A program made the position numbers and the translations under genes. Below the pieces are notes generated by a model. It was not told the DNA's origin. It saw nothing but the letters and a program-made list of their open reading frames with translations, and made no database searches. Shown piece by piece: positions 33,149 through 37,964 of a stretch of DNA of 41,095 nucleotides. This stretch comes from Clostridia bacterium (GTDB lineage Bacteria; Bacillota; Clostridia; Christensenellales; Aristaeellaceae): contig JAFSCW010000139.1 in the NCBI GenBank assembly GCA_017436605.1, forward strand, positions 1 through 41,095. The letters run 5' to 3'. How positions within the stretch are numbered: the stretch's first letter is position 1; each line of letters starts with the position of its first letter.

Positions 33149-33308
33149 ATGCATCTTCCTCCATGTCCGGCCCGGATTTCCGCGCCTCCTTTTTCCGGAT
33201 ATTTCACGCGCGCCGGAAAACCTGACACCGGAAATACACTTTTTTCTTTTTTCTTTCAAGAATCATACAGAACAGCGATGATTCCACCGTTTTCATTCCG
33301 AATCAGGG

Positions 33309-33337
33309 TTGACTTTCTTCCGGTATTTGTATATAAT
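33309..33337 (+). promoter_or_regulatory. Consensus promoter of rpsT
   Basis: TTGACT (33309-33314), 17-bp spacer, TATAAT (33332-33337). Transcription should begin near 33343-33345. Confidence 0.9.
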
Positions 33338-33342
33338 ATGTC

Positions 33343-33493
33343 GCTAGAGAGCTTATGCCCTTGGATGACCGTGGCACCGAGCAGGGTCGCGCATTACACT
33401 GGTGCAGCTACACTTGCTGCTCCCTCTTCCAGTGGAGTCAACCGGACGATGAGGTCTCTAGCCACAATGTTTGATTGAATACTTTCTGGAGGG
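33343..33493 (+). promoter_or_regulatory. Structured 5' leader of rpsT, candidate autoregulatory RNA
   Basis: The leader of about 160 nt begins with GCTAGAGA (33343-33350), which pairs perfectly over 8 bp with TCTCTAGC (33455-33462) and so closes a domain of 120 nt. Inside are a GCAGC/GCTGC hairpin (33405-33421) and a GCACC/GGTGC pairing. CCCT (33422-33425) plus CCAG (33429-33432) are together complementary to CTGGAGGG at 33486-33493, the rpsT Shine-Dalgarno region. This allows mutually competing folds with the site exposed or hidden. S20 autoregulation is known in E. coli; here it is an inference. Confidence 0.5.
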
Positions 33494-33502
33494 AAATTCA
33501 AA

Positions 33503-33745
33503 ATGCCGAATATCAAGTCCGCTATCAAGCGTGTTACCGTTACCGAGCACAAGACCCTGCGCAACAAGATGGTCAAGTCCGCCACCAAGACCGCGATGAA
33601 GAAGTTCAACACCACTGTTTCCGTTGAGACCATGACCAAGGCTGTCGCTGCTGTCGATAAGGCTGCCGCCAAGGGCGTCATCTCCAAGAACGCCGCGAAC
33701 CGCCAGAAGGCTCGCATGGCCCGTGTGCTGAACAAGGCTGAGTAA
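33503..33745 (+). CDS. rpsT: 30S ribosomal protein S20
   Basis: An 80-residue, highly basic helical protein that binds 16S rRNA early in small-subunit assembly. The [11 protein letters not shown] opening and the C-terminal [11 protein letters not shown] are characteristic of bacterial S20. GGAGGG lies 9 nt before the ATG. Codon use is strongly biased to a few codons (AAG, ACC, GTT), as expected for high expression and unlike neighbouring genes. It is a single gene with a strong promoter, a long structured leader and a terminator. Confidence 0.97.
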
Positions 33746-33758
33746 TTCACGCTTTTTC

Positions 33759-33782
33759 CCCTCCCTTTCGGGAGGGTTTTTT
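33759..33782 (+). terminator. Terminator of rpsT
   Basis: A perfect 7-bp CCCTCCC/GGGAGGG stem with TTTC loop, then six T, 13 nt after the stop. Confidence 0.93.
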
Positions 33783-36785: not shown

Positions 36786-37358
36786 TCAGCCCCGGCCCAG
36801 CATCGCGGCAAGGCGGCGGACGTCCTCTTCATACACGCTTTCCAGAGACCGGTTATAAATCAGGCTCGCCGGATGATACAGCGCAAAGAGCGGAAGTCCC
36901 GTTTCGCCGGCAGGAATGATCCTGCCATGCACCTGCCCGATGGTCTGTTTCGATCCGGTCAGCGCCTGCAGCGGCACATTGCCCAGCGTCGCGATCATCT
37001 CCGGCGCAATCTCGTCGATTTCCCGGATCAGCCACGGCCGAAAAAGCGCCGTCTCCTCCCGGGTCGGCGGGCGGTTGGAGAGCCGGCCTGTCTTTCCCGT
37101 CTTGGTCGGCCGGATTTTGACGGTATTGGAAATGTAGATTTCCTCGCGCTTCATGCCCGCCAGTTCGAGAAAGCGGTCGAGATTCTTTCCGGCTTTGCCG
37201 ACAAAGGGCCTTCCCTGCAGCGTCTCCTGTTCACCCGGCGCTTCGCCGATGAGCATCAGCTTGGGCTTCTTTGGCCCCTCTCCAAAGACCAGCGCGCTTT
37301 CCCTGCCCGGCATGACGCCGGCAATCAGTTCCCGCAGTTCGCGCTTATATTTGTCCAC
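36786..37358 (-). CDS. Uracil-DNA glycosylase family-4-like protein lacking Fe-S cysteines
   Basis: A 190-residue member of the UDG superfamily. Motif 1 is LIGEAPGEQETLQGRPFVG (about 37-54) and the C-terminal active-site loop is LYHPASLIYN. Layout and length match the family-4 paralog just upstream. However the protein contains no cysteine at all. The KCRPP cysteine is Ile82 here (VKIRPTKTG), and the second ligand of that pair is also replaced. It therefore cannot hold the [4Fe-4S] cluster. It may be an active cluster-free UDG, since the uracil pocket residues look intact, or have a changed substrate. The start is GTG, with AAAGGTGG 7 nt upstream. It is second in an operon, 33 nt after the canonical paralog. 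Confidence 0.85.
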   Translation of the reverse strand: MDKYKRELRELIAGVMPGRESALVFGEGPKKPKLMLIGEAPGEQETLQGRPFVGKAGKNLDRFLELAGMKREEIYISNTVKIRPTKTGKTGRLSNRPPTREETALFRPWLIREIDEIAPEMIATLGNVPLQALTGSKQTIGQVHGRIIPAGETGLPLFALYHPASLIYNRSLESVYEEDVRRLAAMLGRG

Positions 37359-37391
37359 AAGCTTTCCACCTTTCCCCCGCAGAAGCAGCGC

Positions 37392-37964
37392 TTATCCCTG
37401 CGGATATGCGCCCAGTTCCTTCAGTTTATCCCGGATCGCCTTGAAATCCTCCCATGCGGGCCGTTTTTTATCCATATCGCGCAAAAGCGCAGCCGGATGA
37501 AAGGTCGGCATGAACCATATGCCCTTGCGCAGCTGCCATACGCCGCGATCGCGCGTGATGCGGATATGATCGCCCAGCAGCGCGCGGGCCGGCGTCGAGC
37601 CGAGGCAGACGATGATCTTCGGCCGGACCAGCGCAACCTGCTGACGCAGATAATCCATGCAGGCCGCGCGCTCATCCGCTTCCGGCACGCGGTTCTGCGG
37701 CGGACGGCACTTGACGATGTTGCAGATATAGACCTGATCGCGCGTCATGCCGATCGCGGCAAGCATTTTATCCAGCAGCTGACCGGCCGCGCCGACAAAA
37801 GGCCTTCCGGTTTCATCCTCCTGCTGCCCCGGTCCTTCTCCGATCAGCATCAGACTCGCGTGGATATCGCCCTCGCCAAGAACGACGTTTGTTCTCGTCT
37901 GGCAAAGCCGGCATCTTTCACAGCCAAATACAGCTTCCGTCAGCGTCGGCCACGAGGTCTTCAT
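37392..37964 (-). CDS. Family-4 uracil-DNA glycosylase with [4Fe-4S] cluster
   Basis: A 190-residue thermostable-type (family 4) uracil-DNA glycosylase that removes uracil from DNA at the start of base-excision repair. The four cluster ligands are visible: Cys15 and Cys18 (CERC), and Cys86 and Cys102 with the usual spacing (KCRPPQNRVPEADERAAC). Motif 1 is LIGEGPGQQEDETGRPFVG and motif 3 is FHPAALLRD. The ATG at 37964 has AAGGGATG upstream. It is followed by a cysteine-free paralog and preceded by a small membrane-protein gene. Confidence 0.93.
   Translation of the reverse strand: MKTSWPTLTEAVFGCERCRLCQTRTNVVLGEGDIHASLMLIGEGPGQQEDETGRPFVGAAGQLLDKMLAAIGMTRDQVYICNIVKCRPPQNRVPEADERAACMDYLRQQVALVRPKIIVCLGSTPARALLGDHIRITRDRGVWQLRKGIWFMPTFHPAALLRDMDKKRPAWEDFKAIRDKLKELGAYPQG

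Follow-up and report, generated by a model that had tools for sequence, protein, structure and literature searches.

A narrowly distributed conserved RNA core is located 5′ of rpsT, the gene for ribosomal protein S20, in three of the 29 genomes of the host genus, namely G306, G308 and G000, the latter being the genome of the window (the whole 41,095-nt stretch of DNA analysed here, from a source assembly of 2.65 Mb over 147 contigs). By its sequence and its promoter, the region at 33343-33502 forms the 5′ leader of rpsT in the window, and the same holds for G306; it contains a lineage-restricted structured RNA. The model that we prefer, to which we give an even chance, is a lineage-restricted rpsT leader that would switch between the P2 helix and pairing with the Shine-Dalgarno (SD) region or a terminator, with S20 as its probable ligand. 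A conserved, compact leader of rpsT for which the alternative pairings are defined would offer an RNA for testing autogenous repression by bS20, while its co-inheritance with a diverged S20 allele would show an operator and its regulator moving as a unit.

The rpsT locus and the fold of its leader

A promoter-like sequence upstream of the leader (Table 1), which recurs with the same hexamers and spacing in both G306 and G308, places the start of transcription near 33343. The transcript would thus begin with the sequence GCTAGAGA, which, as the sequence-only reading had claimed, pairs perfectly over 8 bp with TCTCTAGC to form P1, and the two arms belong to an 18-nt inverted repeat with 83% complementarity. 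The predicted fold of 33343-33520, at -57.3 kcal/mol, comprises P1 together with a compact domain, and its stability is equalled or beaten by 6/200 shuffled sequences (z: -1.98). The stability of the isolated core is unremarkable (149, 176 and 159 of 1,000 shuffles are as stable in the three species, respectively), while hairpin 1, P2 and P3 are common to its minimum free energy (MFE) folds in all three. Within P2, an 8-nt bulge, UCCCUCUU (33421-33428), remains unpaired, with unpaired probabilities of 0.85-0.99 in the G000 fold, and the four nucleotides that follow it (33429-33432) belong to the P2 3′ arm. Comparison of the window against Rfam 15 identified only a tRNA elsewhere and no family match for the leader; relaxing the threshold to E-values of up to 10 gave two matches, far below the gathering scores.

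Table 1. Positions of the promoter, leader elements and gene at the rpsT locus of the window
Feature	Position	Strand	Remarks
Leader promoter, TTGACT / 17 nt / TATAAT	33309-33337	+	Promoter-like, 11/12
P1 5′ arm	33343-33350	+	At predicted transcription start
P1 3′ arm	33455-33462	+	
Conserved core RNA, 76 nt, model R1	33366-33441	+	P1a, hairpin 1, P2, P3
P1a	33366-33369/33437-33440	+	
Hairpin 1, with a GAGCA loop and a single bulged A	33370-33391	+	100% of cells paired
P2	33397-33402/33429-33434	+	Encloses P3; 100% of cells paired
P3	33404-33408/33416-33420	+	Within P2; 100% of cells paired
Pyrimidine strand TCCCTCTTCCAG	33421-33432	+	SD-complementary in two registers; invariant in 3/3
Shine-Dalgarno region CTGGAGGGA	33486-33494	+	
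rpsT, ribosomal protein S20, 80 aa	33503-33745	+	ORF and relatives; name fits protein
Terminator-like hairpin 3′ of rpsT	33759-33776	+	

Conservation and distribution of the core

Searches by blastn with 33363-33462 retrieved the three genomes with E-values of 1.2e-17 or better, and the best matches in nine further genomes of the genus (E-values: 0.12 to 0.88) were taken as chance. Among 308 genomes of the family, the covariance model R1 scored 98-105 bits in the same three. R1 matches in fifteen other family genomes (22-31 bits; E-values: 6.1e-4 to 0.099) were dropped as chance; the ten best alignments were inspected and the surrounding DNA was read for three (L158, L156 and L159), with the L158 match being situated within a long reverse ORF. 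In samples of 396 genomes of the order (E-value up to 0.001) and 391 of the class (E-value up to 0.0005), R1 matched the window's own genome alone, these searches employing strict filters and overlapping samples, and the samples of the order and class can hardly have included G306 and G308.

Across 47 sources, comprising the window and rpsT loci, R1 recovered the known copies along with a match in L113 (E-value: 0.077), on the strand opposite to rpsT there, and a second site in the window (E-value: 3), both of which were dropped, as were two matches in 100 rpsT loci (E-values: 0.71 and 1.1), some of which are among the 47 sources. Two exact 19-mer matches in viral contigs occur without the remainder of the core, and a second viral scan gave no matches. 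Likewise discounted were matches of 23-31 nt, among those listed (6 and 10, respectively), in six plasmid and 20 phage records, and a 17-mer pattern allowing two mismatches, which occurs in 189/308 genomes and is therefore uninformative.

Outside the core, the flanks of the three species are mostly hard to align. Between G000 and G306, 55 nt are identical (33300-33354), against 86% identity over rpsT and 75% at its third positions. Substitutions in the core mostly preserve pairing: 97.1% of cells stay paired across the three species, as compared with 26-48% for slid partners. They include two two-sided changes, from A-U to G-C in P2 (in G308) and from U-A to A-U at the P1a end, as well as one U-G to C-G change in hairpin 1, while P1a of G306 lacks two pairs in the alignment used. 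Covariation, which the sequence-only reading had named as support, is not significant with three sequences (109/500 shuffles score as high). When P1 and the SD helix are added to the core, 94.7% of cells are paired and 69/500 shuffles reach the covariation score of these three sequences; the SD helix itself is invariant, such that covariation provides no test of it. The P1 helix is complete in G000 (8/8 pairs) and nearly so in G306 (7/8), but is absent from G308.

Pairing with the Shine-Dalgarno region

The complementarity between CCCT and CCAG at 33422-33432, separated by a 3-nt bulge, and CTGGAGGG at 33486-33493 is present as originally described. Two contiguous registers can furthermore be drawn. 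In the first, TCTTCCAG (33425-33432) pairs with CTGGAGGG over 8 bp, two of them G-U, in competition with P2. In the second, TCCCTCT (33421-33427) pairs with GGAGGGA (33488-33494) over 7 bp, one of them G-U, and as the strand 33421-33427 is unpaired in the core fold, P2 need not open for this register. The length of these helices does not exceed chance, with the longest Watson-Crick SD helix (6 bp) matched in 399/2,000 shuffled leaders and the 8-bp helix with G-U pairs in 436/2,000.

In G000, the MFE fold (-62.8 kcal/mol) contains P2 with its bulge open, and forcing the 7-bp or 8-bp SD helix yields -58.0 and -56.5 kcal/mol, a cost of 4.8 and 6.3 kcal/mol, respectively. In G306, the fold with the SD blocked by the 7-bp helix is itself the predicted minimum (-53.0 kcal/mol; pair probabilities: 0.64-0.72), as compared with -51.4 kcal/mol for a forced P2 and -50.5 kcal/mol for the 8-bp SD helix. 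With the competing folds this close in predicted energy, the blocked one being minimal in one species and 4.8 kcal/mol dearer in another, the suggestion that the two are able to compete is supported.

The SD sequence GGAGGGA is found in all three species with the element and in none of the remaining 21 rpsT genes examined in the genus. Its pairing with the anti-SD amounts to -10.4 kcal/mol, against -17.4 to -19.1 kcal/mol in the five of the 21 others that were scored, and with this weaker pairing an internal blocker of about -12.0 kcal/mol could compete. The idea that the SD was altered to match the strand was not upheld over a 14-nt strand, which pairs with its own SD at -12.0 kcal/mol and with those of five element-free relatives at -11.8 to -12.3 kcal/mol; the 8-nt bulge alone does pair better with the GGAGGGA SD (-11.8 kcal/mol) than with one default SD (-8.5 kcal/mol). 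Among the rpsT leaders without the element, 11/21 carry CACC(C/T)GAGGAGGTG (e.g. L113, L115 and L116), suggesting that a small SD hairpin of their own (CACC with GGTG) is possible.

SD complementarity at chance level would also be expected if the leader were passive, serving as an mRNA-stabilising 5′ stem or a conserved start region that binds no ligand and pairs with the SD by accident. P1 begins at the predicted start site, and between G000 and G306 conservation of the promoter spacer and of the start equals that of the core, both of which accord with such a role. A mere stem, however, has no need of the loop GAGCA and the bulge UCCCUCUU, which are among the best-conserved parts, and P1 is lacking in G308, so that we consider a passive leader rather unlikely.

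Arrangement in G308

In G308, the TTGACT/TATAAT promoter and the core are followed by a potential hairpin, CCCUCUUCCAGCGGAGUCUGCGGAGGGCGGG, ahead of seven U residues, a second promoter-like sequence (TTGCAA/TATACT) and rpsT, in that order, and the hairpin uses the same pyrimidine strand as its 5′ arm. As rpsT of this species has a separate promoter downstream of the element, a plain rpsT-leader reading fails to cover all three species. By eye, the second promoter is similar to the one that rpsT usually has in this genus and therefore looks ancestral; the same promoter scan gives the first promoter alone in G306. The hairpin has a predicted energy of -14.9 kcal/mol on its own. Forced into the 125-nt element it yields -47.3 kcal/mol, against -48.5 kcal/mol for the free fold (a cost of 1.2), and the cost is 3.2 kcal/mol when the element ends after the U tract, while 40/300 shuffles contain as good a hairpin of this type. 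A terminator scan, which disallows the bulge of this hairpin, lists no terminator in G308.

The promoter of its own and perhaps terminator that the G308 core possesses ahead of the second promoter and rpsT are what an independent sRNA gene would display, one that was fused to rpsT in G000 and G306 after loss of its terminator and of the rpsT promoter. The C-rich bulge of such an sRNA would act in trans by pairing with the SDs of several mRNAs. The core nevertheless adjoins rpsT in all three genomes, in which no second copy was found at a significant E-value, and is inherited together with the rpsT allele. Although the strand also fits the SDs of relatives and only the first promoter is found in G306, the G308 hairpin is missing from the terminator scan, and on balance we regard a separate sRNA gene as improbable. 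A coding function of the core, for a short peptide with a regulatory role, is highly improbable. Open frames run across it in G000, but in G308 the P3 loop differs by a +2 indel that shifts the frame and beyond which the bases are unchanged, arguing against conservation of the reading-frame type.

Proposed mechanism and known systems

In the switching leader that we favor, a first state would comprise hairpin 1, P2/P3 and P1a, together with the long P1 in the window, and would leave 33421-33428 exposed as the P2 bulge. In a second state, 33421-33432 would pair with CTGGAGGGA and block initiation, either through displacement of P2, as in the predicted minimum of G306, or in a pseudoknot with P2 intact. 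The same strand in G308 would serve as the 5′ arm of the hairpin before the seven U, functioning as a terminator. Binding of a ligand to the core, most likely S20, would bias the choice between states and produce negative feedback. An alternative pairing with the SD or a terminator is possible on paper in all three species, with each also being reached by shuffles, and the operation of the switch, its direction and S20 as the ligand are plausible.

The operator of ribosomal protein S4 is of the pseudoknot type. A pseudoknot likewise forms the S15 operator of E. coli, according to the part of a 2024 review available (PMC10931766). By description, a pseudoknot that covered the rpsT ribosome binding site would block translation in a similar manner, but the leader considered here has no Rfam match. 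The part of the same review that covers bS20 describes its autoregulation as neither confirmed nor refuted, with failed attempts at showing affinity of bS20 for its mRNA and no conserved mRNA structure, and traces the proposal for E. coli to a weak UUG start (PMC10931766). The proposed regulator, S20 acting on its own mRNA, is the same in E. coli as here, whereas the rpsT of the window combines an AUG start with a structured leader. In that review, a UUG start is said to be typical of rpsT in several families of gamma-proteobacteria only (PMC10931766, in part). Among the S20 genes, which were found in 24/29 genomes of the genus, 17/24 start with TTG and 7/24 with ATG.

The 20 candidate leaders of ribosomal protein genes in PMC7247131 (as far as its text was available) resemble the present one in being structured, lineage-restricted 5′ leaders, but do not include an S20 leader, and the present one rests on three sequences. 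Neither 's20' nor 'bs20' occurs in the available main text of that paper, nor 's20' in that of PMC2965389, and no S20 leader was seen among the matches listed, by title and start of abstract, from the open-licence PMC literature. The single 'rpsT' in the accessible Table 1 of PMC7247131 is given as the gene of a Deltaproteobacteria L20 leader, and is probably a slip for rplT. Mimicry of rRNA was assessed, by sequence likeness only, against the 16S rRNA of E. coli, since 16S sequences were found in 0/29 genomes of the host genus, and no resemblance beyond chance was observed (92/500 shuffles score as high).

History of the leader and the S20 allele

The S20 gene tree (13 genes) unites the three species with the element (support: 0.998 and bootstrap: 100 for DNA; 0.950 for protein), while the joined proteins of neighbouring genes reject them as a clade (p-AU: 0.0083), indicating that the leader and the S20 allele travel together. 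The neighbour set consisted of LytTR, floA, nfed, udg1 and udg2, as well as trmL in 7/13 genomes, these gene names being provisional labels, and nine genomes are common to both trees. The neighbour tree places G306 among the four species whose rpsT has the opposite orientation, which are themselves also rejected as a clade (p-AU: 0.028), and single-gene neighbour trees vary. As such, the leader and rpsT seem to have been exchanged as one unit. A new class of S20-sensing ribosomal protein leader, moving with its own S20 allele and using one strand to control translation in two species and termination in the third, is a tentative proposal, which we consider possible but would not yet call probable.

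In L113, L115, L116 and L117 (G318, G300, G322 and G310, respectively), rpsT runs in the same direction as the LytTR-like gene, and the two are convergent in the window, G306, G308 and seven more members of the genus. An inversion of rpsT in the species with the element was therefore rejected, as the seven other genus members, among those in which LytTR was found, are also convergent and it is four close relatives that differ. Judging by the neighbour tree, a flip or exchange may have happened more than once. Elsewhere in the window, two adjacent reverse-strand genes at 36786-37964 form a tandem pair, which we take to be perhaps uracil-DNA glycosylase-like, the product of each gene showing 34-39% identity to relatives of the other.
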